From Polytrichum commune (taxonomy: Eukaryota; Streptophyta; Polytrichopsida; Polytrichales; Polytrichaceae): a stretch of DNA of 64,000 bases. The stretch spans positions 23,485,501 through 23,549,500 of the forward strand of contig OX485805.1 of assembly GCA_950295325.1 (NCBI GenBank), written 5' to 3'. The notes beneath the pieces are model-generated. The model was not told where the DNA came from. It saw nothing but the letters and a program-made list of their open reading frames with translations, and did no database searches. Below, one piece after another: positions 1 through 41,900 of the stretch. The number at the start of each line of letters is the position of its first letter. Position 1 is the stretch's first letter. The translations under genes were made by a program, and so were the position numbers.

Positions 1-416
1 TCTCCGCACCGTGAACAGCTCCAGCATGCAAATCTTCCGGAGCTGGCGCCACACAGGTGTGTATGGCGCAAATGCAATACCTGATTCATTCCGTTTCACT
101 CTTGATCAGCTCATCTGCGAACTAAATACTGCTATACATACTTGTGCTAATTATAGTGGGTTATTGTCAAACCAATCAAAAATGAAAACTCAGACTGGAA
201 TATCGTCATACCCACTAAAAATGGAAAACTAAAATATTACCATAGCTAATTCAACACCAAGTTATGCGATGGACATTGATAGAATACTTCCAAAACCATT
301 CAACATGCTAACCCACAAAGAAAGCCGGGTTTTGGATCAAAGCAATCTACCAATGTCCATCCGACATCGCATGTTTTGAAATTCTCCGAGCTGTGATTTG
401 GTATGCCTCAAATCAT

Positions 417-466
<50 letters not shown>

Positions 467-874
467 GTAGTTGTAGGAAAAGTAGAAGGCAGATGCAAGG
501 TTCGTTGTGCGGGACGCCCAAATTTTATCATACGTCTGCAGAAACTCTTTGGCCATCTCCGGCGTGGTGACCACAATGGCAGGCACGGAGCCCAGCCTGA
601 GGTGGTAGATTTCTCCATACTTTTTAGCCAAGTTCGCCATGCTCTGATGCGGCAGCTTCCCCAATAAAGGTAAGTGACCCAATATGGGCCATGCTGGTGG
701 AGATGGCGGTAGCTTCAGCTTGGGTTGCTGTGACTTCACCAGTGCCACCAAGGGGATGAGGATCAAGGCGGCCAGGAGCAAATAAAATGCCGGAGCCTGC
801 TCTGCGAGACCAGCATCTGGGCTGTAATGCATATAAGTCGGTACTTTCGCAAGCGCAGCCTTCACGGAATCCAT
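1..874 (-). CDS. Cytochrome P450, CYP71-clan type, first two exons (partial)
   Basis: Haem-thiolate monooxygenase, normally ER-anchored. Exon 1 runs 874-463 and starts at the ATG opening MDSVKAALAK. It holds a hydrophobic anchor (about residues 27-46), the proline-rich hinge PPSPPAWPILGHLP, then the usual N-terminal fold with KYGEIYHLRLGS and IWASRTTNLA. A 382-bp intron (462-81) has a GT donor and CAG acceptor. Exon 2 (80-1) continues in frame with FAPYTPVWRQLRK and MLELFTVRR, the helix C region whose WR and K contact haem propionates in this family. The frame stays open to base 1. The I-helix AGTDT, EXXR and haem-Cys loop lie outside the window. An upstream in-frame ATG at 934 would add 20 residues; the inner ATG gives a normal P450 N-terminus. 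The CYP family cannot be set from 164 residues. No upstream neighbour is visible. Confidence 0.88.
420..461. repeat. (AG)20 microsatellite touching the P450 splice donor
   Basis: About 20 AG units on the plus strand. On the coding strand this is an uninterrupted CT run that starts directly after the GT of the intron 1 donor of the P450. Confidence 0.95.
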
Positions 875-2637
875 GACGTTCCTGAATTGGTGCAGATGGA
901 AAAGTCTCTGCAAGACAATCAAAGCTTCAATCACAAGAAAGGGTACTGTTCGAGTTTCGGTTTAATTTCTCCTGATAACAATCAACGGGAGTAGACTGGA
1001 TAATTGGCTGCTACACACTCGATCGAATTTGTTTCTGCTTAGGTCAGTTTGGCTTGCCATGGAGTTGCAGCTGCGGCGAGACATACAAATGAGGAAACAC
1101 CATCATCACATTATTTTGTTCATCAGCTCCAGAGCATGCAATTGTATCTCAGAAGCAGGATATGTCTTGCATTCTTCTGCCTCTAGAAAAGTTACGTCAG
1201 GTTCCATGGTGAGCGAAGAACTGGTGGCCAACGTTTTTTTTCACTTGGAGGTGATCTACAAACACGAGTTTGAGCAAATTAACGAGAATGAAGCTTGGAT
1301 GATGACGGGAGGAAATTAACACCGACGCCCGTTTCTTTAAGACAGTGGATAGAGAAGGGTCAGGAGCGACACATAACATTGGCGCGTTGCACGGAAGTTG
1401 ACCCATGATATATTTACAGTACGACTTTCCAAATTCTACCATGATGTAGGAGAGGTACGTTTCATCTCCACACACTGGGTTGGAAGGAACTCGCACTGTG
1501 ACACAGATTACATGTGAATGACATAATCATGTGATCCCCGAGCTCACAAACACATGACATCCAGCACCATGCAAAATATTCTAAGAGGAAATGAAATGCT
1601 AGACTCCTGGCTGCACAATCATGTGACCTATTTATTGTCATACCAATAACAAAGAAAACCTGGTGTTTGTCTGTTTGACATGAATTTAAACTTGCACAAA
1701 GTCATTGTGACAGGACAAGACATCACAAAAAGTTGGGTGTTGATGAAATCAAGCTGCGGCGGAAATGCAGCAGCTCGCAGGCATCCAATGGATGATTAAA
1801 AGATGCGACTGATCCCTCAGAGCTGGCCTCACTGGTGGCAAGCGGGTACTAAAGTTTTAGATCATAGATTTGACGAAACTATCCACACGATTTTCACATG
1901 ACTCAGGTTGACATGCAGGCTAGGATGTCAACACAACAGAATGCAAGAAGAGGGGGTTACATTCTGGGAGCTGCTGCCGCCGAATCCCAGTTTCCTAGCT
2001 ATTCATGCAAGCCTCCTTTTAAATGTTCTTCAAGGCTGCGAGCCATCCATCATCGACCTGCACATGGGCAAAAAACCTTCAATCGTTCAAGCAACTTGTG
2101 GAAGCTGATCCTGGAGGAGTGGAAGCTGAACAGCAAGCAGCAAGGATGAGAAAGACATGGGGCTGTGATAGTTATATGCAGACTTTTCCACCCGCGCCTT
2201 CAGCGTGCATGATTACATAGGTGAGCATCTCTTTGACTTCCAGCTTCATCTGATCCGCCCCCAATATTGCATTGGCCTTCGCGCTGGGTTGAAATCTCAA
2301 AATCTGAGCTTGAAAACTGGGTTTAGGAGACATGTTTACTCCGCTCCAGGTTTTTGAAGCAGGTTCTTCAAAGTAAAATTCATGCATTGTACAGTTTTGA
2401 GGTTCTCCGGGTTTTAAGAGGTGAAAACTAGTCAAGTGTACTTTCACATTTGGCAATGGTGCTAGCAAGCATCTCCATGGCCCATTGCGGGGCGGAAACC
2501 CATGAGTGAGGGTTGGCACTAGCATTGGATATGTCTATATGGGCGCTAGGCCCACAAAGAAGGGAGACGTAGTACACTTTATCGAAGAATCTCTTCTAAC
2601 ATACTTAAATATGCCAATTGAGATAACTTGCTTGCAC
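875..2637. other. Spacer upstream of the P450, no gene recognised
   Basis: This stretch should hold the P450 promoter and 5' leader. The longest frame worth noting is 117 codons on the minus strand (2525-2172). I recognise no family in it and see no supporting splice pattern. Nothing else here looks coding. Confidence 0.6.
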
Positions 2638-5413: not shown

Positions 5414-5428
5414 TTGGATTTTTGTAGG
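5414..5428. repeat. Left target-site duplication of the 14.6-kb retrotransposon
   Basis: TTGGATTTTTGTAGG, identical to 20033-20047. Flanking bases differ on both sides, so the duplication is exactly 15 bp, a normal length for target-primed reverse transcription. Confidence 0.9.
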
Positions 5429-7907
5429 TGAAGTCTCAAGAGAGGGGAGCAATGCCGGAGCTCTGAATACCGGTATTGTGTTGACAGAGCTAGGATGGTC
5501 GTTGGTATTGTTGCAAGCATGCTGTGACTAAGTGTTCCTACGCACAAGGGTGAAGCCGTTTCCGTACGAAACTAGCACATGAACATGCTTACAGACCGAA
5601 GCTCTCGAAGAGTAGCAACATATTAGTTGAGTTACCTTACGGTTTTGTGCAGGTATAAATCTAAGTAGTTCGGTGAAGATTGGTAGGTTCAGAAAAGTTA
5701 TAGTACTGAGAGTATGTGGTGCGATTAGGTGTAGATCGGTAGCCTGGTGTAAGTTTGACTGATCGGTGCAAATCGTAAGAGATCGGGGTAGATCTGTGTA
5801 GCTGGTGCTCTGCGTGTCGGTCGACCGCACAGACATCGCAGCCACAATAAGCTCACAACTACAACGAGATCAAAACTGCACCGAGATCGTGTTGCACCAA
5901 AACCGAAACCCTCCAAAGTAACCTTAGCCAAAGCTCTGCGGGCGGCGATCGAGGAGGACGACGGTCGGTGTGCAGATCGTATCCAGCCAAGATCCGAGGA
6001 CATTGATCGGGGAGGGCGTCGGTCGGTGAGTAGATCGAACCCAACCAAACTCCAAGAACGTGGTTAGTAAGGGCGCCATTCGGTTTGAAGATCATACCCA
6101 GCCAAACGCTGAGGACGTTGCTTGGAGAAGGCGTCGATTGAAATACAGGCCAAACCCAGCCAAGCTCCGTGGGCAGTGAACGGAGAAGGCGTCGGTCGGA
6201 GTGCAGAACGAATCCAACCAAAGCTTCGAGGGCGTTGGAAGGAGAGTATGGAGGTAAGTGGGCAAATCGGGACTGCATCATTCTTACATATGAGACTGCA
6301 CCGAGACCGGAGACCACATCCACGGATTCGGAAAAAGGTAAAGAATAGAGCATCAAAGTGTGAGGTTAGGACCACCACAACCTTGTCCCCTTGTTTCTCT
6401 ATTCGGATTCTTGTTCTAGGAAAAGTAGGCCTAACCTGTGCAAAACTTCATACCAAAGCTAGCACCAAGGCCAGAACCTACACCGAGGACATAATCTGCA
6501 CTAGAGGAGAGGCCAAACCGAGGTGATATCCGAGCGCCAAGGGCGATCACTACACCAAGGTCAAAGCCCAACCTCAAAGTGATAGCCCGATCCAAATCCG
6601 CAGCAGCCCTTCGAAGTAGGACTCTGCCCCGAAACCGTAGCATCAAGGCAGCAGCCCGCTCCACAGTAGCAGACCACGACTAGGCCGCTAACTGCACCCA
6701 AGAAGCAACCCGCTCCGAGGTCGGGAGGCTACACCAAACTCACCACCAACACCGAAGCATGCTACGGGAGTGCAAGTCTGCCCCGAGGTTGCAGCAACCC
6801 ACTCCAAAGCAGAAGAACACACCAAAGTCGCATACTACACTCAGGAAATAACCGGCTCCAGGGAAGGGGATTGTAGCAGACTGCACCCAAGAAGCGGATC
6901 GCTCCGAAGTCAGAGATTACACCGTAATCATCACCAGAGACAACTTCGAAGCCCGCTCCGTGGCCACAAGATTGCTACAAGGCTACAAACCTGTTTAGAG
7001 GGTGCAAGCCTATTCCGTGAACGGTACAGACACTGTCCACACAGCGGAAGGCAACAACTCTCTCGAACAGAGTATGCAGCAGCAATCCAGGACCTAGAGC
7101 CAAGCTGATACACCACCGAGTACTCGGTCACCATCAACCTGCACCGGACCAGGCAACTCAACCGAGTCCGCCGGGCCAATTTTCGAGAAACAAGGGTGAT
7201 TCCATTCTGCTCGAATAGACTGTGTGTACGGTGTTTTTGTGGCAAAGTAGTGACAGTGCTGCAAAGTGGTAGTGTAGATTCAAGTACTTAGAAAACCAAA
7301 ACCCAATCTGAGCATGCTGGGAGGGTTATAATTTGGTGTTGGAACATTGGCTCTAGTATTTAGAATCTACATGGCCACCTAACAAGCTGGTCCTACTCAA
7401 ACACGAACACACTGCACCCAGGCATAAAAGTGTAATCCAGAGCCGGTTGGTGAAGGGTGTGTGGATCCCGGAAGGAGAAAAAGCCCATATCTGAGCAAGT
7501 TGGATGGGCATGGCCTGAGTGCATTGGCAGGCCAAGTAATAAGAAAAACACCGGGACCATACACCAATCAAAAACCGGCCTCGATCACACCAGCTCTATC
7601 TCTTTGGAACTAACGACCGGAGCTCACCCGTCTCACCAAAGCCTCATGCGAAACAACACAAGAGCATCAGCACCCACCGAAGACACAGTGCATCAACCTC
7701 CTACAAACCCCAACAACACAACACCAAGTGGTCATAGAGGTAATTCACCTCACAAAGGTACGATTCCTCCCTCTTTGAATACAATGTTTTTCCATTTTCT
7801 CTTGCTACACATAGATAGGAAATGTCATTCCACATTGAATAACAACCATGAAAACACCCGCATAAATAAAAAAACTCCTCTACTACAAAGCCCCACTACA
7901 CGCGCTA
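5429..7907 (+). other. 5' region of the retrotransposon
   Basis: About 2.5 kb before ORF1 without a convincing coding frame. It holds the 58-bp minisatellite and, around 6660-6960, two diverged copies of a roughly 190-bp segment that share ACTGCACCCAAGAAGC and CGCTCCGARGTC. It is the likely site of the internal promoter. Open frames at 6122-6526 and 7457-7918 look like chance frames in repeat-derived sequence. Confidence 0.6.
5954..6245 (+). repeat. Five tandem units of a 57-58 bp minisatellite
   Basis: The anchor CG(T/A)CGGTC and its diverged forms recur at 5959, 6017, 6074, 6132 and 6190. Each unit continues with a string like GCAGATCGWAYCCAACCAAA and ends before a GGAGAAGGCG-like start. 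The units are diverged but in register. Confidence 0.88.
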
Positions 7908-9953
7908 GTGGAAAGTAGAGGAGCAAAATCTAAGCAAAAAAATAGCTTCACTAAACCAAACAAAGCATTATGTCCAAACATGTACACTAAACCAACTAAT
8001 TCCAAACTAATAAACACAACTAATGTCACAATTTGTAGATACAAAAGGTTAGGACAAGGTAACCAAAGCTATAATCTCCTCCACAAAGCCTGCTTGCACG
8101 CGCAAAAAGGAGGAGGAGATAAAAACACTATCCCTCAAACCTACCAAAATATTAACAAACATTGTGATCAACATATGGCAAATAAAAGCAAAGCAGTTCA
8201 TGACGCCATCATGAGGAGCCCCATTGACACCAACATGGAAGACACGAATGACACAATGGTGATAGAGACCACCCAAACCAAGAGGACACAAGAAGCAAAG
8301 AAAGGAGGCAGCTCAAGCAAGCGGAAGAAAAATGTAGAGCTTACAACCGGATTAAAGGAAACACCGAAGGACTTTTGGCTTGGAATTTTGGCTATGGAGA
8401 AGCTCGCCATCGAAGAAGAAGTAAAAACCAAGGATTGTAGGCCATCAATGAAGAAGGAGGACCTCATCGAAATGGGCATATCCGAAGGAGAAGCAGAGGA
8501 GATGAGCCAACTGTACAAGATTGCATTCCCACATGTAAGACAACTACTCTACCCACTTGAGAGGCCAGATGGGAAAGGTGGGCAACATTTCAATTTAACT
8601 CAATTACCCATTGAAACCGAAGTCGATCCGGGCACCGGACTTTCCTTTGAGTACCACATAGTTGTCCACTTTCAAAGACCATCAACAGACTATACTCATA
8701 ATGAGATACTCAACATGGCAACAGCTAGACTAGCATGCATGAGCATCGAATTGGGGATAGGACTAGCGGAACCCATTTACATCCCTTGCAAAGAAAAAGA
8801 AAAAAACAGCAAAATCAAGTTCTAGACAGGGACCATTAAGATCCATCTCAAAAATCCTAAAGTTGATGGAATTAGCATGCTTAAGGGACTACGCCCTTTC
8901 ATCTTGTCACTAGACAAAACTCACACTCTAGGAAAGATTTGCAAATGCTATGATTCCATAGCTAGGAACACATTGCTATCTACAAAAATCGAAAACCCCA
9001 AGCTACACCTCATCTCCTTTAGCGAGTTACAGAGAGATGTTCTAATTGAAAGTTTCAAACATGGGTATGACTATGAGATTGCTAGTGTGCAAAAGGTTAA
9101 AGAGGAAACATGGGGATGGCTCATCTCAACCACGCCAACACAAGCAAACATGATCATCCAATACCTTGTCCCATACAAACAAGAACTCATGCAGGTAATC
9201 ACACCACAAGCAGCCAAAGTAGAAAGAAGGAGCCGCGGGGATGGACTCACAGAGGACGAAATCAAAAAGAAGAATGCCACCATGCTATGCCTCTATGGTC
9301 TTCACAAAATGAAGAAGGTTGAGGACACAAAGGACTCCATCAAAGCAGTGCTAGGTGAGCTCAATGTTGCATCCTTTTACTTTCCAGGACAAGTAGGTGA
9401 CCTTCACAAAGGCACGGCTAATGTGCAATGGCTTAACGCCATTGTCTACAAACAATGGGTAGGCAAGACAGTAGAGATCTTTGGTAAGCATGTAAGCTTT
9501 GCACCACGTCCAAAAAGCTTGCAAGGAGCAATACCACCCACTAAGGAGGAGCAAGAAAAACTTGGGTTTTGTGACATAACCACAACAATTGCGGATATTC
9601 TTGAGGCAACTCGCAATGCACCGCAAAGCAAAGGGAAAAGTAACATGATCACACATGACGACCTAGACGCACTAGTCGGAACTGCCATGGACAAGCGGAA
9701 TGGACAACTCCTAATTGAGCTCAAAACCGAACTCACAGCAAAAATACACAAGGAAATGGGAGACCTCAAAAAAGAGGTATCCTTGGAAGCGGATGTACGC
9801 GAAGAAAGAATCACCCGAAACTTGACAACACATGTCAAACAACAACTCACGGAAATCCGAAAACAACTTGCACTAACATCACAAGCGGTTAGTATGACAA
9901 CAAAAGCGCTAGACTCCATTCTAGCCCCAACACAACCTCAATTGGAAAACTAG
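7908..9953 (+). pseudogene. Retrotransposon ORF1 (nucleic-acid-binding type), one internal amber codon
   Basis: One continuous frame of 681 codons interrupted only by TAG at 8823-8825 (...SKIKF | TGTIKIHLK...). The first ATG is at 7980. The N-terminal 100 residues are basic and Asn/Thr/Lys-rich. A folded middle follows, and the C-terminal half contains a possible RRM-like segment (NVASFYFP ... NVQWLNAIVYKQWVGKTVEI) and a coiled-coil tail (TAKIHKEMGDLKKEV through TEIRKQLALTSQAV). ORF1 proteins of this type bind element RNA and form RNPs; I infer that role from position and composition, with no close family recognised. The codon context after TAG does not fit known readthrough signals, so I read it as an inactivating mutation. 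Confidence 0.7.
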
Positions 9954-12311
9954 GTTGGAAAAACAACCACATAGCCCACCCACAAAAAATCTGTATCCAC
10001 ACAAGAAATGAAGAAATGGAAAAAATGAAAACAAACAAACCAATAGCATTTGGAAATGCTACCAACAAAGCAACACAAAAAATAAAAAAATAAATAACAC
10101 ATACAACTAAAGCATTCCTAAATCCTACCACACAAATCCGCAAACCAAAAGAAAAAAGAGAAAAACAAATAAAACCAAAGCATTTTTTAACGCTTTCACA
10201 CAAACTCATAAACTAAACCAACAACAAAAAAGAAAGAAAAATCCAAATCAAACCAAAGCATTCATAAATGCTCACACACAAACACATAAACTAAAACAAC
10301 AACAAAAATACCAAAAACAAAGTATACCAAAACAACCAAAACATAACCTAATACAAACAAAACTAACACATCCTAAAAACCACAAAACCAAAGCAATATA
10401 CAAACACAACATAACAACACTACGCCTACACACAAAAAGTTACAAAATACCAAAATACCAAAATAATAACCAAAAGAAAGTTAGGAAAAACTTACACAAG
10501 ATAAAACGAGCTCGGCCTACCGGCCTCGCCCAAGTACAAAACACATACAAACAAAACAAAGAAAACTCAAACTCATGTAAAACAACACCCAAACAAAGAA
10601 ATACCGAAAAAAATAATAACCAATTATAATACTAAAAAACACATACTTAGAAGAAATGTAGATAACACACTCAAAAGAAAAAACAACAACAAAAAAACAC
10701 CATACACAATTAACCACATAAGGACAAACACCCCACCTCCCTATAACAAACACCAAACAAAAAGACAAAGAAACCTTAAAAATATAGAGATACTCACAAA
10801 AAACAAATACCTAAGACAAACCCAACCCACCAACCTTGCCCATAATCAAAATAAATACAATAAAAGACACATATACTCAAAAAACAAAACACAACACACC
10901 AACTCATACAAAATAAAAACAAAAAGGAATAATGAACCCGCACAACATCAACAAACACAACCCCACCCCAAAACATACCCACCACCTAAGCTAAGTAAAA
11001 ACATTAATGTTAAGACAATAATGCAACAAAACAACAAAAACAACAAAATAAACATACTAATCAACAAAACAAAACACATAAAGACATACACCTCACCACC
11101 CCAAACAAACAAACAAAACCTTACAAAACTAATGACAAACAAAGACCTAAAAAGAACCCGGCCTACCAACCTCGCCCATAAACCAAAAAAAAACAACAAC
11201 AACAACAAGAATAAGCTTAAACAACACACAACCCCAAATAACATAAAACCCAAAAACAAAAATAAACACACCTAACAAAAACAAATAAAACCCCACCCCA
11301 AAAAATACACGACATACCTCCTACCTAGACTATGCAAAACCATCAATGGTAAAATAAAAGCACAACACAAAAACAAAAAAGATATACAAAAAACAAACCC
11401 AACAAACCTAGAACAAACAAAAAACAAGAAAGAAATAGCACCTCTCAACGTTGCCGCACAAACAAAACAAAAATTAACAACACATAACCCCAAAAATCCC
11501 AAAACCTCTAAACAAACACACAAAAACATAAAACAAAAAAAAGGAATAACACTTTCTAATGCCCTCACACAAAGGGAAACTAAAACAACACCCACAACCA
11601 TAAAATCAATTAAACACATAAAACCCCAAACAATCAAAAAAGCAAAACGCATAACCATAAACAACAAAGGTAAGAAAAATATCCCCATAACAAACCTACA
11701 ACGGGCTCGGCCTACCGGCCTCGCACAAAAACAAAGTAAATACAAACATAACAAAAGAACACACCCAACAATAATAAAAATACAAAAATCAAACACAAAT
11801 AAAACATCACCCAAACAAAGGAATACCAAAACTATAAAAAATAAGAATACCCATACTAATTCATATACCTTATACATACTTAGAATACATGCATCAAACA
11901 CAACAAAAACAAAGACAAAATACACAACTAAACTCATAAATACAAACACAAAACCCAAACCCGAAAAACAAAACAATACAAATACAATCAGACACAATAC
12001 CTCGACACAAATAAAACAAAATAAAACAAATGACCCTAACCGAAACAACAAAAGGCTCTAAAACAAACACTAAACAAACACAAACACCCAAAAAAAAAAA
12101 AATAATAATAATAATAACAACAAAGACAAAACAACCCTTAATACTACGGACCAAACAAAACAAAAAACAAAAAACAAAAAAAACATAAAACACCACCAAA
12201 AACAAACACAAACCTCACAAACAAATACACGAAAATAACCAAAAAAACACCTTTGGAAAGATAAAAAATACATACAAAGAACTGAAATCATACAAAACAC
12301 AAAAGGCAATA
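9954..12311 (+). repeat. A+C-rich inter-ORF spacer with degenerate tandem repeats and hairpins
   Basis: 2.36 kb between ORF1 and ORF2 in which G and T are scarce on the plus strand. Near its start are about 70-75 bp repeats around 10035, 10110, 10180 and 10255, each with a small hairpin such as GCATTCATAAATGC. The block GGCCTACCGGCCTCGCC recurs at about 10512 and 11709, with decayed versions near 10820 and 11160. Segments at about 10970 and 11290 are copies 339 bp apart, each with a palindrome (AACATTAATGTT, ACCATCAATGGT). No plus-strand coding frame fits; long minus-strand frames here follow from base composition. Confidence 0.75.
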
Positions 12312-12509
12312 ATGGAACAGACAAACACGCCCCACATCACACAAACACATAAAAACAACATCAAACACCCAAACCAAATAACAAAACTAGACTACGAAGT
12401 AATAAATACATACAATAATAATAACAAAAAACAACGGTACACAACCTACAAAAAACGGAAAATCCTCCTCATAATCCACGCTTTCTTACACCTACTCCTA
12501 ATACTTAGC

Positions 12510-12536
12510 GGAGACATCGAAACTAACCCGGGTCCC
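12510..12536 (+). other. 2A-type ribosome-skipping motif in ORF2
   Basis: Residues 67-75 of ORF2 read GDIETNPGP, a perfect match to the D-V/I-E-X-N-P-G-P signature. The preceding residues ILLIIHAFLHLLLIL form the hydrophobic/helical upstream part these motifs need. Skipping between G74 and P75 would release a 74-residue leader from the enzymatic part. 2A motifs near the ORF start are known in trypanosome L1Tc/ingi and in several animal AP-endonuclease LINEs. Activity here is untested. Confidence 0.85.
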
Positions 12537-13173
12537 ATGCCCAACGTCCTACAGTCACACCCATCCACACACAAAAATAGATGCAAAAGATACTTTATAG
12601 AATGCACAATCAAGTTACAACCCGAGTACCAACACTTAGCAAAACAATTTTCTCCAATCACAAATATAACACATCCAAATCATCAAGACACAACCACAGT
12701 CCATCCACACCTATCAAGATATATTTACCAAAATCAACACCACCCACCCCCACGCATACTGTACGCACTTATTACCACAATTAGCCCAGTAATCGAGACA
12801 TGCAACCATATACTAATACAAACCCTAGAACCAGACTGGACAACAAAAGTCTTAGAACGAATGGCCTCACTCCAAAACCCACCGGAAAGACACATCAGCA
12901 CCCCACACCCATACACACAATTCCTGCAAATAAACCAAGACATCATAAACCCACCTAACAACATCAACAAAAAATTATATAACTTCATGAACCAAAATAC
13001 TAAACCACTAACTCTACAATTAATGAAAGACAAATTCCCTTTTCTACCAGAAAATCTACTTATAGAATCATTAAAATGCAAAGAGCCACTAATAGAATAC
13101 TCCCACCCCCCACCACTACCCAACACACCAGCACAACACCCCCAAGCGAACCAGACAACACATCACAGTACAC

Positions 13174-13960
13174 ACATAATCACATGGAATGCTTCATCAC
13201 TAAATACAGCCCTACCAAACCTACACCAACTTATATCCAATACACCAAACAACCCGGCAATTATCACTATACAAGAAACCAAACTAACAGCAACAAAATC
13301 TACAAAGTATATACAAAGCCTATTCCCTCAATATAAACTAATATTCAACAATACACATGCACTAACAAGATGCATACAACAAAGAATGTCATATACACCT
13401 GCAAGAGGCGGACTCCTTACGCTCATAAATAAAACATACGCATACCCATGCAATATTACTAAAATCTCCACCCCAGCCGCAATATCACCATACCTCCAAA
13501 TAATAGAAATAAAGAACCAACCCCTACAACCATGGCTAATAATACACATCTATATGCCAACACACGAAGTAGATACACGATTTATACCAATATTATAACA
13601 GAACATAACACAACAAACCACTAATCACCCCAACCATACACACATTCTATGCGGAGACTTTAACAGAGACATAGCTCTAATTGGACGACAAAACGAATAC
13701 ATCACAACACCACCACAAGCACAAGATATAGAATGGTGTACATTTGTAAACAGCCTGCAACTTACGTACGTCCCCACGAACAGCTCATACTCTAGACAAG
13801 GTGGCCAAAACTATAACCAAACTAGCATAATAGATGGATACTTCATAAAAACAACTAACAATACTTTATACACATCAACCACGAATAATGACCACAACCT
13901 TAATTCAGACCACTCACCAATAATATTACATATACCAAATAACACATTAATAACCCGATG
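13174..13960 (+). other. AP-endonuclease-like domain of ORF2
   Basis: Exonuclease-endonuclease-phosphatase motifs in order: ITWNASSLNT (metal-binding Asn), AIITIQETKL (catalytic Glu), IHIYMP, CGDFN at 13650-13664, a STIIDGYF-type segment (SIIDGYFI) and SDHSPI at 13905. One TAA at 13596-13598 interrupts the frame, which otherwise continues. In LINEs this enzyme nicks the target DNA. Confidence 0.88.
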
Positions 13961-14829
13961 TATGCCGACAATAACAGATAAACCCCAAGGATATTAAATC
14001 CTATCCCACAAGCAAATATTGAAAACTTCAAAAAAAAAAATTTTGAAGAAAATGCACTCCAAATAAATGAACTTACAAACACACTAAGCAAAGACCAACT
14101 AACAAACGACCAATGACAATCATCTTGTACAATACTAAACCACCTAATACAAAATATTTCTGACAAAATCCAAGACATGTGCAACGCACCACCCTTCCCA
14201 AACCTCACAAACCGTACATCACAACAAGGAGGCTTTCTGCCAAGAAAACTCCAAAAAAAATGGAAACACCACCTCTCCACCTACCACCTAATCAAGAAAG
14301 CAATTTTCACCATAAAAAATTCACCTAAATGGCCAACACACCCAATAATAGAAGAATTAAAAAACCACACCCAAGTTAATATCCCACCCCCCCAAATCAA
14401 GAACCCCACCAACAAGAATGGATAAAAAATTAGCCCAAATAGCCAAAATTGCAAATATACACGCTCGAAAAATTACTACAAAATACACCCAAGAATGTGT
14501 CAAAAAAACTATATCCAAATACAGACAATTACATAAAAAACCCTAAAAAAATCAACAAAAGAGTCTTCAAACATCAAGAAACACCCCCATTAGATTGCAT
14601 TACAGATAACGACAACAATATCCTTACAAACCCAATGGACATAGCCAATGAAATCCACAAACAACAATCAATTAGTAACAGACCCACAGTTTCAACATGC
14701 TACCACCAACCAGAATACACACCACATTGTACTTGCCGAGTAAGACAATACCCATGGCATGACCTTGATGGATTTGTTATCGATAAAAGAAGAAACCCAC
14801 AAACCCCGCTACATAAATACTTCAACAGA

Positions 14830-16074
14830 AAAACATACGACTTAAGCCTTAAAAACCTAGCCAACAACAAAACACCCGGCCCAGATAAAATTCCTAACAT
14901 AATTTAAAAAAATATGCCTGAAAGCTTTCACAAACTACTCTTCCTATTCTTTTCTCACTGCTATAAACAAAAACAAATTCCAAAATCATGGAAACTAAGC
15001 TTAACTATACTCTTATATAAAAAGAGAGATCCCTCCAAATTAACCAACCATAGACCAATTGCACTAGCAAACACAATATACAAATTTTTTACGAGCACTC
15101 TAACATTCATACTGTCAGCATACGGAGAAGAACACTAAATCTTACACGATAGTCAAGAAGGATTCATAGCAGAAAGAAGCACATCCAGACAACTTCAACT
15201 CCTGATAGCAACACTAAAAGACGTACAATTCACAAACCAAGACATATACCTACTATATATCGACTTTAAGAACGCCTTCGGCTCTTTTGACCACGCAAGA
15301 ATATTAGCCATAACCAAAGACTTAGGATATCCAGAAGACGTTGTGACCCTAATATGAAACATTTATTCAAACTCTAATACCATATTCACCGGCGAACATT
15401 TTGGAAAAACAAAACCTATACCCATACAAAGAGGCACAATACAAGGCGACACACTCAGCCCATACCTCTTTCTGATATTCCTAGAACCCCTGCTAAGATG
15501 GCTACACAGAAGGAAAAATGGATACACATTTGGTACATCCAAACTAACAATTAGCTCGGCAGCATACGCAGATGATCTGGCAGCTATCACAAGCAACCTC
15601 CAATCAATACAAATCCAACTAAATAAACTAGACAAATATTGTGATTGGGCCGGAATGAATTTGGGAGTGCCAAAATGCGCCATCACAGGATGCCCAAATA
15701 AATCAAAAACAAAACCTAAAACATTCAAAGCCAAAATCCAAGCCCAAAACATCAACTACAAAAACCAATTACTATCTATTCTACACCAAAACGAACCTTA
15801 TGTATATTTAGGCATACAACTAGTACCCTCACTTAAATGGAAACTCCAAACACACATCACTTTAATCAAAATAATAAACCAATGCAAACAACTAACAACT
15901 TGCCCAGCTACAATGAAACAAAAAATAAGCATGGTGGACACCGTCATCAGAGCCGGTATAGCCTATAGCTTCTACGTAGTCCCATACTCATTACCAACCA
16001 TTAAAAAATTAGACAAAAAAATTATTGGAATCCAAAAAAAAAATGCGGCCTATTCAAATGTACAGCAAATATAA
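14830..16074 (+). other. Reverse transcriptase domain of ORF2
   Basis: Non-LTR RT blocks in order: NNKTPGPDKIPN, RPIALANTIYKF, GFIAERSTSRQL, YIDFKNAFGSFDH (first catalytic Asp at 15262-15264), GTIQGDTLSPYLF, YADDL (15565-15579) and a VYLGIQL-like segment. Stops at 14905, 15136 and 15355 interrupt one frame. Confidence 0.93.
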
Positions 16075-17429
16075 TAACCCAACTACCACATGACCTATTT
16101 GGATTATAAGTCTTCTCACTAAAAATGCCTATCTAAGATGTATTGGTGAACAACTAAAAAACGCATTAAACGACCATGGCAGATTAAGAATAATATACAA
16201 ATGACTCATACAACATGTACTAGCCAAACACAGAGGGGTGGAGGACATACAAAGAATTAAATACCAAGACTGTATCAGATCACCTACAACAAGAACACTA
16301 TTTCTTATGAAAAAAGAAGGAGGAATTCACCTCAAAAGCACAAAAGCAAATTTCCAATTTCATATGACAAAACTGGAATAAGAATGAAGAACACAAGCCA
16401 TAGCTCATCTACCACAACTAGACAACGAGATATCCCTTAAACTCCTACATAAACTTCTAACCCACAACATACAAAAAATAAAACACATTTCTCTCCCCAA
16501 CGGCACAAATTTAATGTCACCAAAAGACTTCCAAACCTATTACAAAACACCGACAAAACTAGTAAAAAATGCACTACATATAGCGGAACAACTCTTTTGC
16601 CACCAAATCTGTAACCAAAACTGCCCAAATCCATGTACTCGACACCCACAAGTCCGCACACTCAAAGCACAATACATATCAGAAAATAGTGAACTAACAC
16701 CAAGAATGCCGGAAAACCCCCCGCATCCACCACTACCACAACAACCCGAACAACCCAACCCACCCTCAAATATAAAAAATAATCCTCTAAGATTCCCCAT
16801 ACAAATTATACTAAATCACAAAACAAACGAAACAAAAGATAAATATAAAATAACAAAAAAATTCAACACGTATCTATGCCAATGGTCACCTCAAAATAAC
16901 ACAACATATAATAAATGGCTACCACAAGGTGACCTATTCTCACTAAACCAACCCACAGTAGTCGAACACAACATTAAACTACTAAAAGAATACTACACGA
17001 GACATCAACACAATTACTACAATAGCATAGTATATACGCATCTAACCCCTACACAAACTAAAGACTCGAGATTCATACCACCATCTACGATAATACCACA
17101 CACCCAAATATCAATAATAGAATGTAACCCAGAAAAATATATTACCTCTGTAACTAACACTATACAAACACAACACGAACTAACACACATATATATGAAG
17201 ACACAGGCAAACACCTCATTACCATCCCAACCACTAGACTAAAATGACTATGGCAACAATATAACAAAGACAAATATAATACACATGGTCTAGTACCCCC
17301 CCCCCCCCACAATCATTTGAAACAAAATTAGTATGGCTCTACCAAAGATATAACCCTAAACAATCGAAAAAAGACCCACTAAAAATAGCTCAATACACCC
17401 TCTCACAAAACCTCCTAGACTCCATCACA

Positions 17430-17971
17430 AAAGCATTCAACATCTCACACTCATACTTCTCCTCACCAATAACATGTTCTACACATATCACAAATTTTTT
17501 TCCCCATTTGCAAGGGACAAAGTTTTTGGATCACTAGGCACCGCCTTCCAATATAAATGGAATTGAATTGGGTATGTCCACCCACATAATGAAGAAATGG
17601 CCCAACAAGCAATACATTGGGCTAGATTAGCAACCAAAAACGACCCAAACACCATCACATTACTAGTCACACCGGACATCAATTGGTACCAAAATTACTC
17701 ACCACACACCGGACCCTTCCCGGATGTACATGTTCTGACCCATTTCACTACAGATACCATCACATACGACGAACCCACAACCCCTCAAAATACAAACAAA
17801 TCCCGAATTGAACCATTAGCAATACACATCTTTTGTATCCACCACCAAAACCACAATATTGGCACACCCAACCAAATAGATATAATCAAAACAACAATAG
17901 AAAATCTACAAATAGCACAATACCACATACAAATTAAAAGGCCCCACCCACACCCAACAACACACCAGTAA
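17430..17971 (+). other. Methyltransferase/PCIF1-like block between RT and RNase H
   Basis: Reads, with one frameshift at a T run near 17500, SHSYFSSPITCS, RDKVFGSLGTAFQYKW, GYVHPHNEEMAQQAIHWA, NTITLLVTPDINW and DVHVLTHF. This order resembles the PCIF1/N6-adenine methyltransferase type: an FASPL segment, an FGSLGSFF segment, the (V/A)NPPF catalytic tetrad, then a strand of the LSFVVIVPEW kind. The tetrad position here reads VHPHN, so catalysis may be lost or altered. The similarity is from my recall of motif order and needs a profile search. Confidence 0.45.
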
Positions 17972-18087
17972 ACAAAAACATTAAATGGAATAAATTACTT
18001 TACCCACCCCATATTAACCCGCCAACCACAAACACACCACCATTATCAAACTACAAAATCAACACTAGATTAAAATTCCCACCACAA

Positions 18088-18535
18088 TACAGCTACTACA
18101 CAGACGGCTCGTTTGTCCCACCCAGAAAAGACAACGCCGGGCATTGGAAGAAAGAAAAGAAGCGGGCTACGGAATCTACAACCCAAAAAAACAGAAATAC
18201 GTATATCAAAGAGACTACCTGGCCTACAAACCAGCTTTAGAGCAGAACTAATGGCCATACACAAAACACTCAAACTAATTACTACTAAATACGCTAATGA
18301 ACCAGCACACATATTCACAGACTGTCTCGACTGTCTATATGTATTTAATACACAAATTAAACACCCCACCGACCATAACAACCACGCTGACAAAACTATA
18401 TTAAAATCTATGGTAGAAATGTTAAAAAGCCGAACACAACCCACCACGATGTATAAAGTCAAAGCACACATAAACATTGATGGGAATGAACAAACAGACC
18501 AGCTAGCAAAACAAGGCATCAAAAAAAAGATTTAG
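18088..18535 (+). other. RNase H domain of ORF2
   Basis: Type I RNase H carboxylates are visible: YYTDGSFVP (Asp at 18103-18105), FRAELMAIHKTL (Glu), HIFTDCLDCLYVF (Asp) and GNEQTDQLAKQG (final Asp). Two frameshifts lie between the first and second motif. Confidence 0.85.
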
Positions 18536-18887
18536 ATTCGCTGAAAAATCATACGAATATGCATACACTACTCCATACTACTTTCAAAAAGACACATGGC
18601 CTGGCCCAACCAAACGACCTGACAAAGGCCCTGTCAGATGCCTTGAAACATACATTACCAAACACGACCGAGATAACAACCTAAAAATCATGTCAGAACA
18701 ATTCCCCAACATTAGCAAATGGACAATGAACCCTGATATAGATAACGAAATATCCAACAATTTCTGGTCTAACCCTGCAATAACAGATCCACAAAAAACA
18801 TGCCTACTAAAATTCCGAACGGGACAATACATGGGCAATGCCAGAAAACAACTATTTTTTGGCATAGAAAGATTCCCATCTATCACA

Positions 18888-19440
18888 TGCTCAATCTGCA
18901 ACTCCCTTGATGCAGATACATAGCTACATGTACTGTTAAAATGCAACCAACACCACATACATGCCCTAAGAACCAAAAGACACAACAAAGCAGTATGGGA
19001 ACTAAGAAAGCTACTCCTATCATGGCAAAAATCCAAATGTTACATCCTCATGAATGCAGGAACATTTAACAACAACCCACAAGAGAATACAGTCTCCACA
19101 TGGCTCCTCCCATGCACATGTACACAACAAACATGCCACTGTAACGCTAAATTCAAACCCGACCTCCTGTGTATTAAAGAACTCCCACACCAAAGTACCC
19201 CACCATCACACCCAATAGACAATCTGGCGATACATTTAATCGAATTCACATACACAAATGACAGATTTCCACAGGATACAATTAACAATAAAATCCAAAA
19301 ATATCAACCATTAATTAACGACATCACTCAACACGGCTGGAAAACAGAGCCACTTCTAGTCATTACGGCCGGAACAAGAGGAACCATGCACGTCCCGTCA
19401 ATGAAACAATTGGAACAAACATTTAAACTCCCTGAAAACC
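18888..19440 (+). other. CCHC zinc finger plus restriction-like endonuclease (RLE) domain
   Basis: Cysteines at 18888 and 18897, His at 18927 and Cys at 18942 give C-X2-C-X9-H-X4-C. Then KRHN (18975-18986), a Cys cluster CTCTQQTCHC, KPD (19155-19163) and IEFTYTNDR with Glu at 19242, followed by KIQKYQPLI and LLVITAGTRG. CCHC followed by RHN and (K/R)PD is the layout of R2-type endonucleases. The spacing from PD to the next acidic residue is longer than in R2, so the active-site assignment is tentative. One TAG (18921) lies inside the finger. Confidence 0.68.
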
Positions 19441-19550
19441 CGATAAAACATACATTCAAAGAAATAAACACTATTGCCATACAACATGCTAGTTCAATCC
19501 TTCTACATAAAAGGCGTACTGAAAACAACCAAGCAATACCAACAAAATAA

Positions 19551-20032
19551 GAAAGAAGAGGTCATAATGAGGACCCCTTTATTAAATTATATGAACACTA
19601 ATAGCTCAGGAAGAAGGGTAGAAGCCGGTTGGTCGGTAACAATTTTCCTGCCTTTAACCACTAGGTAGCACCAAGTCATGCATTACACATTTAAACGCTC
19701 CAACGGACTCAACGGGAATCAAACCCAGACCGTCTAAAGTACAGAACAAACATCCTCCCTCAACCAACCGAGGAAATATGACTTGGTGACCACCAACACC
19801 CCAATCCGCAACTTATACTATAACACTGACGTCACTACCCGATAAATTACCGCAATCGGTTACATTTACGTTGTCTCCTGGTTACTATAGTGCCCATCCT
19901 CGAAAGGGGAGAGTAGTACTGTCCCAATTTCCCCCTGTCTGGTAGACATCGGGTCATTTGACAATACGAATGGACACTTCATTCACGCCGGCCCCTTAAA
20001 CTGGGACCGGAGTTTCTATCTATCTATCTATC
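19551..20032 (+). other. 3' region of the retrotransposon with inverted repeat and TCTA tail
   Basis: CACCAAGTCAT (19669-19679) and ATGACTTGGTG (19778-19788) form an 11-bp inverted repeat around a 98-bp loop. On the minus strand the loop contains GGTTGGTTGAGGGAGG and GGGTTTGATTCCCG, which resemble tRNA A and B boxes. The element ends in four TCTA units (about 20015-20032) where the RT would have begun on the target. Confidence 0.65.
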
Positions 20033-20047
20033 TTGGATTTTTGTAGG
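20033..20047. repeat. Right target-site duplication of the 14.6-kb retrotransposon
   Basis: TTGGATTTTTGTAGG, identical to 5414-5428, placed directly after the TCTA tail. Confidence 0.9.
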
Positions 20048-21410: not shown

Positions 21411-22440
21411 GCAAGTTGGAATCACAGGTCAAAATGCCTCGTTCTTTGTTGGATGCCTAAACCCTTGCCTCCAAGGAACCAGTGTACGGGTTGGTTTAAG
21501 GTTTAGGGCAAGTTGGAAATCACAGGTCAAAATTGCTCCTTCTTTTGTTGCCTGCACCCCATCAAGCCTGGATTTGGGCGAACCAACCCATACACTCGTT
21601 CTTTGTTGGATGCCTAAACCCTTGCCTCCAAGGAACCAATGTACGGGTTGGTTTAGGGTTTAGGGCAAGTTGGAAATCACAGGTCAAAACTGCTCCTCCT
21701 TTTGTTGCTTGCACCCCATCAAGCCTGGATTTGGGCGAACCAACCCATACACTCGTTCTTTGTTGGATGCCTAAACCCTTGCCTCCAAGGAACCAGTGTA
21801 CAGGTTGGTTTAGGGTTTAGGGCAAGTTGGAATCACAAGTCAAAACTGCTCCTTCTTTTGTTGCTTGCACCCCATCAAGCCTGGGTTTGGGCGAACCAAC
21901 CCATACACTCATTCTTTGTTGGATGCCTAAACCCTTGCCTCCAAGGAACCAATGTACTGGTTGGTTTAGGATTTAGGGCAAGTTGGAATCACAGGTCAAA
22001 ACTGCTCCTTCTTCTGCTGCCTGCACCCCATCAAGCTTGGATTTGGGCGAACCAACACATACATTCGTTCTTTGTTGGATGCCTGAACCCTTGCCTCCAA
22101 GGAACCAATGCACGGGTTGGTTTAGGGTTTAGGGCAAGTTGGAACCACAGGTCAAAACTGCTCCTTCTTCTGCTGCTTGCACCCCATCAAGCTTGGATTT
22201 GGGTGAACCAACCCATGCACTCGTTTTTGTTGGATGCCTAAACCCTTGCCTCCAAGGAACCAGTGTACTGGTTGGTTTAGGGTTTAGGGCAAGTTGGAAT
22301 CACAGACCAAAACGCCTCCTTCTTCTGTTGCTTGCACCCCATCAAGCTTGGATTTGGGCGAACCAACCCACACACTCGTTCTTTGTTGGATGCATAAACT
22401 CTTGCCTCCAAGGAACCAGTGTATGGGTTGCTTCGCCCTA
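21411..22440 (+). repeat. Tandem array of a 156-bp unit with plant telomere motifs inside
   Basis: The anchor TTCTTTGTTGGATGCCT recurs at 21442, 21599, 21756, 21912, 22068, about 22224 and 22379, giving steps of 155-157 bp and seven units. Most units contain GGTTTAGGGTTTAGGGC or a one-base variant. Other constant parts are CTTGCCTCCAAGGAACCA and CACCCCATCAAGC. Frames through the array are open by chance. Confidence 0.95.
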
Positions 22441-30690: not shown

Positions 30691-32213
30691 TTAACCCACA
30701 AAGTGGACGGAGATGGGGAGTGAGCTTGGATTGGTTTACTTGTAGACAACACCAAGGCTTCGCGGGATCTAAGATATGGGGGCACATAAGCAAGGCCTGG
30801 AAGGTAATGGTTAATGGGACCTATCAACTTCCCCCTCGCACTAGGATGGAATTACTGCATTCAAATATATGGTGGTCAGAGGGCGTAGATCTCCTCAATA
30901 AAGGAATAGATTACACTAAAGGCCTACATCTCTATCGCAAAGGAATCCGGTGTGTGGACAACGTTTGGGATAGCACGCAACAAGAATTTCTCACATGAGA
31001 GAGAGCACAAGGTAAATTTAAGCTTACTAACCTTGAACAAGGAGACTGGGAGGAGGTGACGGATGAAATCTCTCGAAAGTGGCGCCAATTACTGGAATCC
31101 GAGGAAGATACCACGTATGCCGGTCAATGGCTAGGTCTCTACATAGGCAGGGAAGAAGACCCGGCCTTAGTCATTAGATGCGATGAGGATTTCACTCCCG
31201 AGTGCTTTCAACGGAAAACCCTTACATTGCCTCTTCCGGTGCAATGCTTTACGGTTGGAAAACACTCAAGATGCCTCAGGGAGTGGGAAAACCCTCAAGG
31301 AGAACTTGAAGGTTTCTTTCACAAGGTCAAGATTATGCACACTAACAGGGGGCCTAAGAAGGACGGGAAAAGGGAGGAAATTATTTTCTTCTATGGCAAA
31401 CTTGCCACTCTAGGGTGGGACCCGGACAGATGGAGGTGGATCGATGGCGGTCGGTTTCTGGACTATACCACCAAGGATGGATGTGCCAACATCCTTAATA
31501 GGAACCCAGGCACCACACGGGCGGGAGACAAATGGCAAGGTTATCTCCCAAGGAACTATAGGTTTCACTGGTCACATGTGTGGGATCCGTTACGGTCGGG
31601 TAAGGAAGCCGCGTTTATTTGGTCAATATGGCATAAGGCGGTGGCCGTTAATGATTGGAGGGCACGCATTGCTCCGGCCTCAATTTCCAAACAATGTGTG
31701 CTTTGCCTTCCTAACACTAGTGAATCAGTCAAACACAAATTTTGGGACTGCATTCAAGCTAGACGGGCATGGAGATGGGCTACATATATCATGCACGAAC
31801 TCTGCGGGGTTAGATCCGGAAACTATGATTGCTTCAATTGGAAACAAGTGATTTTTGAGGAAAGAATTCCCAAGAGATATGGGAAAATGGTTAAAATTTG
31901 GCACCTTCTTAGGGGCATTACCCTTTGGACTATTTGGATTGAACGGAATGACAAAGTTTTCAACCAGATACAATGGCATGAATCTAAGGTTAAGCAATAG
32001 ATTTGGGATGCGTTGATTATCTATGCCAAGATGGCTTGGAAAAGGGTGGTGGCACAAGTTAAGATTAGTAGCTTCTCAAAAATGACTATGTTGCGCGGCT
32101 TCGACAAGACTTGGGGGCGAGGAGCGTTCTTTGTCGTGGACAAGATATGCATGTCAATTGGAACTGGAGAAGACACCGTAGGTAGGTTGGCGAGGCCCCT
32201 TCGGGGGTTATAA
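30691..32213 (+). pseudogene. 5'-truncated L1-type LINE, ORF2 C-terminus (zf-RVT region)
   Basis: A single frame runs from before 30691 to TAA 32211-32213, broken by TGA at 30996 and TAG at 31998. It contains the zinc-binding reverse-transcriptase C-terminal region common in plant L1 elements: AFIWSIWHKAVAVNDWRARI, KQCVLCLPNTSESVKHKFWDC (Cys, Cys, His, Cys) and RGITLWTIWIERNDKVFN. Endonuclease and RT cores are missing, as expected from 5' truncation. No poly(A) tail is visible because a 770-bp MITE begins directly behind the stop. It is unrelated in sequence to the 14.6-kb element. Confidence 0.82.
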
Positions 32214-38945: not shown

Positions 38946-41900
38946 TTAGAACATGTGTACACTCCGGCGGCGGTCAAGTCTTGGAGAGTTTCCCCTCGAG
39001 TTATCCTCCAATGGTTCAATACCAGACTCAGCTTCGTCAAGCTCGACATCCCTTGCTTCAAGTTCTTCATCACACAGCTCAAGCAATCGGTCTGCCAACG
39101 GTGGGATCCCAGGATTCCTTCCATCATTGTAAATGTGAGCGTTATCAGCAATTTGTTGGACGTCCTGTCGGAATTCACTACGGCTGTTGTACTTCAGCTT
39201 ACGAACCCGTTCACGGATTGTTGAAAGATCCATGGGCTGCTGAACGTAATAGTGGTAGTCGGGGGCATCCTTCTTAGGGACTGGCTTTCGAAATAGAAAA
39301 GAGCAGTCTGCATTTTTTAAGAACTCCAGTACACCTTCTAAAATATTGCACAATTCAACCTGCAGGACATTCCACCAGATCCTATAAATTATCTAATCAC
39401 AATAAAATGCAGTGCAATTTTTGGGATAAAATCCTGAATTTGTACAGAAATCCTCAATGTGGAGGCAAAGTGGAGGAAACCCAGAAGGAAGTAACTTGTA
39501 AGTAAAAGAAGCCAAAGTGCTCACCTGGCCTCCTCTCTTGCGTATTCGTTTTTGCACATTACCCGATTCAGGAGTTGGTTGATGATATGTTGGAACATGT
39601 ACCTCAGGTCGTCTCTTGACCCCTTTCCCCCTGTCTTTCACATTTGGTAAGGGAGTAGATCCAGCCATAACCCTTACTTTCTCCTTTATATTTTTCATTT
39701 TCACTTGCTTGTCCCGAAGCCTCCCTCTCTCTTCTTCTCTGGCTTTTCTTTCTCTTTCCTCCCTCTCTGCTTTCATCTTTGCTTCTGCTTGCAATCTCTC
39801 CCGTTTCTTTTCCTTCATTCTCATCTGCTTTTGACGGTCCCGCTCTGCTTTCTCCTGTTCCTGTCGAGATCTCTCTTCCTGCTCAGCTCTAACCCTCTCC
39901 TCTTCCGCCATCTTCCGTTCGAGTTCTTCCTGTTCTCGTTCCATTTCTTCTGCAAGTGCCCTCTGATATTCTTCTGCCTCTCGCTGCCGCTCCCTCTCCG
40001 CATGTTCTCGTTCCTTCCTCTTCAGTGATACAGAATCATTATTCACATGCACAACCTTCTTCTTCAGCGTCTTTACTGGCAACAACCTCTTGCTCTTCAC
40101 ACCATTTGAAGCATTTGACAGCTTCTCGCGTCGCTCCAACTCCCTCTCTTCTCTTAACCTCTCCTCCAAAAGTGCAGCCTCATATGCCTCTTGCTCTCTC
40201 CTCATCCTCTTCTTCTCTTCCTCGGCTTCTTGTTCCTTTTTAAGTCGCATCTGCTCCTGCTCCTGTTTCTGCTTCAATTTTAGCTTGAGAAGGGGAGGTC
40301 TAGCCCCACTGTCTCCTGTACCATTGGCATCACCTGAATGTCGTCTCTCAGGCTTTCCTTTCCCAATTTTCTTCACAGGTGGCGCTGCGATATCATCTGT
40401 GCTATTCTGACTGCTGTTCCCTGTCAGCAGCCTGATTTTGAGAGAAGGAAGCTTTGCTAGAGGTGGTGGTGGTGGTGGGGTTTTCGAATCCTTCTTCGGC
40501 AATGGTACTTTGGGTGGAGGAGCCTGTACAGATTTGGGGGAATCCAGTTCTTCCACTGTCTTTGTGGAGAGCGACTTTCTCTTTATGGTGATCTTTGTCC
40601 CTTGTCTTTCCACTAAACCTTCAGCAGCTGCCCCCTGGTCTTGCCAAGCCACAGGCTCACCATCTTCCATATACAATGGGCATTTTTTGTTGGTTCTCAT
40701 ATGCCCCAACTGCAAGACCATCAATGATTCAGCTATATTCAATGCAATTCACCAAAAGCCCACAAACATGAAACTCGTCTGTGGAAAACAATAAGCTTCT
40801 TCTGGATCTGAACTTTAACTTCACAGCCAACTTCCATAAAAAGGGCAGATACTTTGTGAAAGGAAGTTCGTAACTGAAGTTAGAATCTGAGTTGACAGCT
40901 TACACTATCTTCGAGTGACATTCTACCCAAAATTCGAAAGGTGAAGTAGCATTCTTACCTGTCCACAGGCCCCACAAACCAGGGATAATGCGTCTCGCCC
41001 AAACTTTCCATTTACCTTGCCCTTAGTTGGTATCTGCCACACCCAGAAAGATGGCTAAGATAGTCCTCATAATGAACCAACCAGGAACATATAAAAGATG
41101 GTCGTCCTGAACTTCAATGGAAGCTCTTGAATTCAAGAGAGTCAAGAAAGTTAGACACCAATGCTTTCATAATCATCTAAGGATATTTCTACAAATAAGC
41201 ATAGCACACTAAATCAGCAAAAATGCTGTGAGCTCGTAAGAATGATTAAATAAAAGGCTGCTTAAAGTTTGCAAAATCTGAATCCAGATGTAAAAGACAA
41301 GTGTTGCAATGAGAACCTTCCAAGTCAAGGTCACAATTTTCATGATATCCACCAATGTTTGCCCCTATACTAAATGCTTATGTGATCATTGTGCACTTAA
41401 AGCCCAAGTAGTTTTAGTTGGTAACCCAGTTGAAGACATACCTTTACCTCTTTGACAGGGGTTGCCCCCTTTTTCACCTTCTTGGCAAGTTGAGAAGATT
41501 TTGCGGGCCCCTTCTTTCCAGACTTATCTTTATCAACCCCTCCTTTTTGATTTGCTGCTTTGAGTGCATTCTTCTTTGCTAGATAGAGCGCCACCTATAG
41601 ATACACCAAGCAAGAAACGTAGGTAAGCACCTAAACACACAAAGACGTTTGGCACAAGAAATGGTACATTTAGAAGTCAGCTTGGTCCAGCTTGGACCAG
41701 AGCAATGCAAGCCCAGCAAACAGGAGAGACATATTGGCCACCAGAAACTTTACGTTGAGTTTACTAAAGAGAACATTGCCAGCTGCAAGCAAATAAATAA
41801 TATTGTCTTGATAAGATGACAAGTACCTCCTTAGGGTCTGTGATTATGATTTCCTTCGAGGTATAAGTGCCATCTGGCTTCTTTGTACGAATAATGCGTT

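Follow-up and report, generated by a model that had tools for sequence, protein, structure and literature searches.

The window analysed here, a 64,000-nucleotide stretch of the genome of Polytrichum commune (assembly GCA_950295325.1, contig OX485805.1, positions 23,485,501 to 23,549,500), carries a 14,604-bp unit at 5429-20032 which we interpret, with a probability of about 0.86, as a full-length but dead member of a plant family of non-long terminal repeat (non-LTR) retrotransposons with two endonucleases, of the Dualen/RandI type, that has been active recently. Its bounds are exact, because an identical 15-mer, TTGGATTTTTGTAGG, stands at 5414-5428 and again at 20033-20047 as a target-site duplication (TSD); at a flat 0.27 per base, the chance of such a match at two named positions is approximately 3e-9. 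The original prediction, made from the letters of this DNA, had given exactly the coordinates bracketed by the TSD pair. From its 5' end the unit consists of a 2.4-kb leader, a first open reading frame (ORF1), a spacer rich in A and poor in G, ORF2, and a final 482 bp, of which the last 18 form a (TCTA)n tail (Table 1). The parts of ORF2 follow one another as 2A peptide, apurinic/apyrimidinic (AP) endonuclease (APE), reverse transcriptase (RT), a PCIF1-like block, RNase H, a CCHC knuckle and a restriction-like endonuclease (RLE), and both the domain searches and an RLE alignment agreed with the order proposed at the outset. ORF1, the dead state of the ORF2 frame and the existence of further copies with long open frames in the genome had not been part of that proposal.

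Both predicted endonucleases were recovered. The APE passed profile searches with two Pfam families, and its motifs TWNAS and GDFN were seen by eye in all four open copies described below. The C-terminal endonuclease is supported as an RLE, though it gave no match in Pfam: H-C, RHN, PD and E were invariant in an alignment with nine relatives, and RHN, PD and E recurred in 4/4 open copies. A profile of the domain retrieved none but R2 proteins from the PDB, and these weakly (all five rows, with a best E of 0.0074 and two rows at 0.78), and the top seven structural matches of a model predicted for the window's own 208 RLE residues were R2; a second fold comparison covered the 999 chains ranked highest by Foldseek. 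The best PDB match for the RT of the open copy C1a was likewise R2 (7.7e-34), with L1 at 1.2e-19.

At E 1e-5, 343 relatives of the RT were found, the best 120 of which are 53-90% identical to it. We use the label ‘algal-type’ for 14 proteins (P0001 and P0004-P0016), four of them named Haematococcus lacustris, with RTs approximately 30-32% identical to that of the element. In a tree of 33 rows, the window element grouped with four rows from the host genome and eight proteins from metagenomes (97/99). This clade joined 13 algal-type proteins at 98/98, whereas the two R2 rows fell outside, as did the three L1-type rows of the host, which were typed by eye; the tree program issued warnings for P0002, P0003 and one of the L1 rows. 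The suggested affinity to Dualen/RandI was the right lead, and neither outcome named beforehand as refuting the prediction, a failure of the endonucleases in profile searches or an RT within a plant L1 clade, was observed; the phylogeny envisaged at the outset was drawn with algal-type rows (three named Haematococcus, none labelled Dualen) in place of labelled Dualen/RandI sequences.

Nearly the whole domain set is common to the window element and the algal-type proteins. An APE match was obtained in 9/14 of them and the PD and E of the RLE in 12/14 (two of the 12 run off soon after), with both endonucleases together in 8/14, and a 2A core lies upstream of the RT in two Haematococcus proteins (P0011 and P0012). 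Between RT and PCIF1 fold a PHD finger was weakly detected in six of the ten algal-type proteins scanned, over the cut-off in one, and a Cys/His cluster at the same place in the window element is its possible counterpart. Hints of a Josephin-type protease came from P0007 (below the cut-off) and from the precomputed domains of P0012 and P0013. No relative was found in viral contigs scanned with P0017 and P0004.

The family is abundant in the host genome, which was searched over 408 Mb in 64 contigs, seven of which (C1-C7) account for 406 Mb. The RLE gave at least 151 matches (150 of 4,875 candidates scored), the full-length rows listed being 63-100% identical, and PF12237 at least 150, all over the cut-off (150 of 697 candidates scored). 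Among the RLE matches listed, six lie in open frames longer than 2,600 aa, and four of these six were read. Measured from stop to stop, ORF1 and ORF2 span 1310 and 2919 aa in C1a, 1833 and 2924 aa in C4a, and 747 and 2625 aa in each of C2a and C5a. TSDs abut the tails of C1a (14 bp), C2a (12 bp) and C5a (12 bp), giving lengths of 13,473, 11,965 and 12,490 bp, respectively; none was found for C4a. RT, RNase H and PCIF1_WW exceeded the Pfam cut-offs in all three open ORF2s scanned. The 98-100% identity, by segment, of C2a and C5a implies that the family moved recently. In C4a, where ORF1 ends in locus L052 and ORF2 starts in L043, the ORF2 frame has its first ATG inside the final 8 nt of ORF1, an arrangement that would suit termination and reinitiation. 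The host genome also holds a second, deeper subfamily, represented by L057 (G000:C5:33410001-33412000), which groups with P0066, P0074 and P0090.

Ratios of nonsynonymous to synonymous change (dN/dS) between C4a and C2a were 0.07 for both APE and RT, 0.04 for RNase H, 0.09 for RLE, 0.14 for the PCIF1-like block (dS 0.42) and 0.41 for the segment before the 2A peptide; in pairs with C1a the PCIF1-like block gave 0.09, with dS saturated.

The predicted 2A peptide, GDIETNPGP, fits the published core (D/G/C/N)(V/I)ExNPGP, as given in the available part of a survey of 2026 (PMC12846837), and the core recurs in three of the four open copies. From position 12498, immediately before the 2A, the window resembles C1a as DNA as far as the 3' end, at 79%; upstream of the 2A no such similarity to C1a or C2a was found, ORF1 being related as protein only: its identity to the ORF1s of two open copies is 33% (8226-9938) and 35% (8310-9890). 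The pre-2A segment is weakly constrained, with 19% and 31% identity between C1a and the two other copies compared. By the start of similarity and the weak constraint taken together, the 2A separates a variable leader from the working protein and would set the latter free. A hydrophobic stretch before the window 2A was considered as a signal peptide and dropped, as it is not common to the open copies. ORF1 had no match in Pfam, nor did a profile of its second half with three relatives match in the PDB. By position, the spacer may correspond to the fast-evolving ORF2 leader of the open copies. It contains four copies of a 59-bp unit (at 10502, 10812, 11148 and 11697, forward strand; 63-85% alike), which encode, in some frame, similar peptides around R-P-T-x-L-A.

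At the 3' end, the last 140 nt showed a mean column identity of 84% in 18 of the 31 copies found, and they fold with 37 consensus pairs, four of which have changes on both sides. TCTA-type repeats preceded by GGACCGGAGTT, or by a sequence close to it, were present at 31 of 33 ends tested, with short or changed repeats at three of the 31 (L011, L033 and L035); the pattern allowed up to four mismatches and includes the first tail bases, so it is no independent test of the tail. The 30 host loci used for this count and for that of the PCIF1 site were the best RLE matches to the window and are therefore its nearest kin. The flanks of the 3' ends look unrelated between copies, which argues against a fixed target. 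An Rfam search of the element gave no match up to E 1.

The methyltransferase-like block of the original prediction can be given a family but not its activity. When a single frame change and a single stop were bridged to read it in one piece, it matched PF12237 (PCIF1_WW) at 1.8e-10, with 41.1 bits against a cut-off of 31.1. Alone it reached PCIF1 in the PDB only at E 1, whereas a profile of eight algal-type domains with the window piece retrieved PCIF1 only, at 2.2e-5. A hidden Markov model (HMM) of the eight algal-type domains matched the window, 4/4 open copies and 12/14 algal-type proteins (the eight from which it was built and four more), the exceptions being P0011 and P0012; the Pfam cut-off was passed by four of the ten algal-type proteins scanned and by 3/3 open ORF2s. 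The catalytic motif of PCIF1, NPPF, is replaced by HPHN in the window, and neither NPPF nor NPP[FYW] is kept in any of 17 sequences, which read HPHN (4), HPPN (1), VPDF (3), SPDF, MPDF and FPNM, or VPPM, NPEY, NPPP, NVPA (2, placed by eye) and CPAP. As several of these are close kin, they do not represent 17 independent losses. Among the host loci, the region was located in 25 of 30 and NPPF was kept in 0/25, with 23 reading HPxN and two decayed. Judged by its sequence, the block belongs to the PCIF1 family and is without the catalytic motif of that family.

Whether the domain might still be an active methyltransferase with a changed motif, marking RNA or DNA of the element, is a question on which the evidence divides. 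Purifying selection on the block speaks for such an enzyme, and two relatives read NPPP and NPEY. On the other hand, none of the 17 sequences, many of them close kin, keeps NPPF or NPP[FYW]; according to the available text of PMC10544176, human PCIF1 needs NPPF for its activity and N553 and F556 mutants are the standard inactive forms, while the reference list of the same paper names a catalytic-dead Drosophila Pcif1 that retains a function. We consider an active enzyme unlikely, although it is rejected less firmly than the readings discussed next. Purifying selection without the catalytic motif favours a binding role, and the PCIF1-like fold would accordingly be kept as a binding module.

An R2-group element that gained an AP endonuclease independently, unrelated to Dualen/RandI, would explain why the solved proteins closest to both RT and RLE are those of R2. 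Against it stand the order APE-RT-PCIF1-RNase H-CCHC-RLE shared with the algal-type proteins, the 98/98 node that joins them with R2 outside, the unrelated flanks and the short TSDs. This origin is improbable, and R2 proper was rejected on the presence of the APE and on an RT lying outside the two R2 rows. Still less probable is a chimera in which two insertions, or an assembly join, mimic a single 14.6-kb unit: the part 5' of the 2A showed no resemblance to C1a or C2a as DNA, which would fit a chimera, but a single exact TSD pair encloses the unit from end to end, three open copies share the plan of ORF1, ORF2 and 3' end inside their own TSDs, and ORF1 is homologous at the protein level. An ordinary plant L1 long interspersed nuclear element (LINE) with an over-read C-terminal zinc region is scarcely credible, even though plant L1s can carry RNase H too (PMC4640811, in the sections available) and the host has L1-type elements (four, by eye), since the RLE model and the RT tree, with three host L1-type rows apart from the element, rule it out.

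Several points weigh against the Dualen/RandI-type interpretation itself. Sequence comparison without a model supports the RLE weakly (E 0.0074), and the K of its E-x-K is T in the window and in the open copies. In the three open ORF2s scanned, the Pfam APE match was over the cut-off in one, below it in one and unlisted in one. Long outgroup branches are present in the RT tree, and the Dualen/RandI name derives from architecture, papers and Haematococcus neighbours rather than from labelled sequences. Dualen reportedly contains a cysteine protease, and no Pfam match to one was obtained in ORF1 or ORF2 (a 1310-aa ORF1 having been scanned over its first 976 aa). One open copy reads DIKPNPGP, with K for E, outside the published 2A motif. 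C2a and C5a are too alike for dN/dS (RT 2.29 and APE 0.82, from few changes). Finally, covariation adds little to the 3' fold (-0.98 of -37.93 kcal/mol); because this term is small, the fold is plausible, not proven.

Taking the domains and their order, the open copies, the duplications, the tail, the selection and the motif loss as observed, we infer from them a series of biochemical steps, with separate tasks for the two nucleases and a role for the PCIF1 fold, that as a whole is offered tentatively and at clearly less than even odds. One RNA would carry ORF1 and ORF2, the ORF2 frame opening at the end of ORF1 and starting with the weakly constrained leader; the 2A would then make the ribosome skip a bond, freeing a protein of approximately 2,340 aa. 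The PCIF1-like fold, no longer methylating, might act as an RNA- or cap-binding module that holds the protein on its own capped RNA. The RT would recognise the folded 3' end and slip on (TCTA)n, the AP endonuclease would nick without sequence choice and prime first-strand synthesis, the R2-like RLE would cut the second strand 12-15 bp away, producing the duplications, and RNase H would remove the RNA. It is conceivable, but again rather doubtful, that a lineage which extends from green algae to plants acquired PCIF1 from its host before the element groups split, and that catalysis was lost while the fold was kept as a reader of the cap or 5' end tying the protein to its own RNA.

Table 1. Features of the element and of its surroundings in the 64,000-nucleotide window
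Feature	Position	Strand	Basis or remark
5' TSD, TTGGATTTTTGTAGG	5414-5428		exact copy at 20033-20047
5' leader, 2.4 kb, without recognised coding sequence	5429-7865	+	no DNA similarity to open copies C1a, C2a
ORF1, stop to stop; one internal TAG at 8823-8825, first in-frame ATG 7980	7866-9953	+	protein similarity to open copies
Spacer, 57% A, 6% G, degenerate repeats	9954-12188	+	composition, repeat search
ORF2, disrupted; in 10 pieces with 12 internal stops and 9 frame joins	12189-19550	+	reading of frames; tblastn of open ORF2
2A (StopGo) peptide GDIETNPGP	12510-12536	+	fits published core; also in open copies, P0011, P0012
APE	13179-13925	+	PF14529 5.3e-9, PF03372 3.4e-7; piece read through one stop
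RT core, YADD box	14851-16023	+	PF00078 4.6e-13; bounds converted from RT profile
Cys/His cluster between RT and PCIF1 fold	16598-16645	+	by eye
PCIF1-like methyltransferase fold; HPHN at 17579-17590 in place of NPPF	17310-17662	+	PF12237
RNase H	18082-18526	+	PF00075 5.5e-12 over 18185-18520; first part in another frame
CCHC zinc knuckle before RLE, cut by stop	18888-18944	+	alignment with relatives
RLE; PD 19158-19163, E 19242-19244	18924-19547	+	alignment, PDB profile, structure model
Conserved 3' end that folds, last hairpin abutting tail	19875-20014	+	18-copy alignment and fold
(TCTA)n tail replacing poly(A)	20015-20032	+	sequence; copies
3' TSD, TTGGATTTTTGTAGG	20033-20047		exact copy of 5414-5428
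P450 exon	416-961	-	best solved relatives plant enzymes
Tandem array, 156-bp unit, 6.4 copies	21438-22430		93% matches
Relic	30999-31997	+	zf-RVT 8.7e-6, just below cut-off
Gene exons	38949-44703	-	bromodomain 2.1e-20, DUF3591 1.3e-10

The genes flanking the element look plant-like: one encodes a P450, and the bromodomain/DUF3591 gene may be read as TAF1 type. A tandem array begins approximately 1.4 kb downstream of the element, and a relic further on looks like an ordinary L1-type LINE. No further copies were found in the window outside the element by blastn (E 1e-3), and tblastn with five proteins gave one chance-level match.

Dualen, the group with both enzymes, is the basis on which LINEs have been argued to have exchanged restriction-like for AP endonucleases (PMC4640811). 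In a recently active, high-copy plant family that carries both enzymes in open frames, their division of labour becomes testable in a plant setting. The known host range of the Dualen/RandI group would widen, and a natural plant use of a 2A peptide would be provided; the available part of the 2026 survey (PMC12846837) found no natural use of 2A by plant viruses. The family would also show a captured cap-methyltransferase fold under selection without its catalytic motif and, if the cap-reader reading is true, a form of cis-preference in which elements that have kept both endonuclease types rely on a cap-binding enzyme that they captured.

Among known systems, the m6Am cap methyltransferase PCIF1/CAPAM resembles the block in its Pfam family and in the FxSP and FG stretches, and differs at NPPF, which is replaced by HPxN in 23/25 host loci and mostly by xPDF and others in the algal-type proteins. 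The algal-type proteins share the domain order, the PCIF1-like fold (12/14) and, in two, the 2A, and differ by the weak PHD finger and the hint of a Josephin-type protease. R2 elements share the RLE fold and provide the nearest RT in the PDB, whereas copies of the present family have differing flanks; we know of no APE or 2A in R2, nor, to our knowledge, do the 2A-bearing non-LTR elements of trypanosomes, sea urchin and others possess an RLE. These latter elements likewise carry a 2A-like peptide (PMC4981915, in the part available) and are APE-type according to a title cited in PMC12846837, whereas our element has a plant host. Dualen, also called RandI, is described in the accessible text of PMC4640811 and PMC3636483 as the group with both endonucleases, and with RNase H; in the 2013 table of PMC3747384, green algae are the hosts listed for eight RandI families, whose 3' repeats, such as (ATT)n and (CTATTT)n, are not poly(A). 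The window element resembles this group in combining APE and RLE in one element, in its RNase H and in its non-poly(A) 3' repeat, and differs from it in the plant host, in a separate ORF1, in that no cysteine protease was found, and in the PCIF1-like domain, which the available descriptions of the group do not mention. The literature covered (Dualen/RandI, also together with moss, and PCIF1 together with retrotransposons), with most subscription papers outside its scope, contained no record of a PCIF1 domain in these elements, nor of a plant host for the lineage. In the literature as far as it was available, the nearest described kin of the window element are the elements of green algae.

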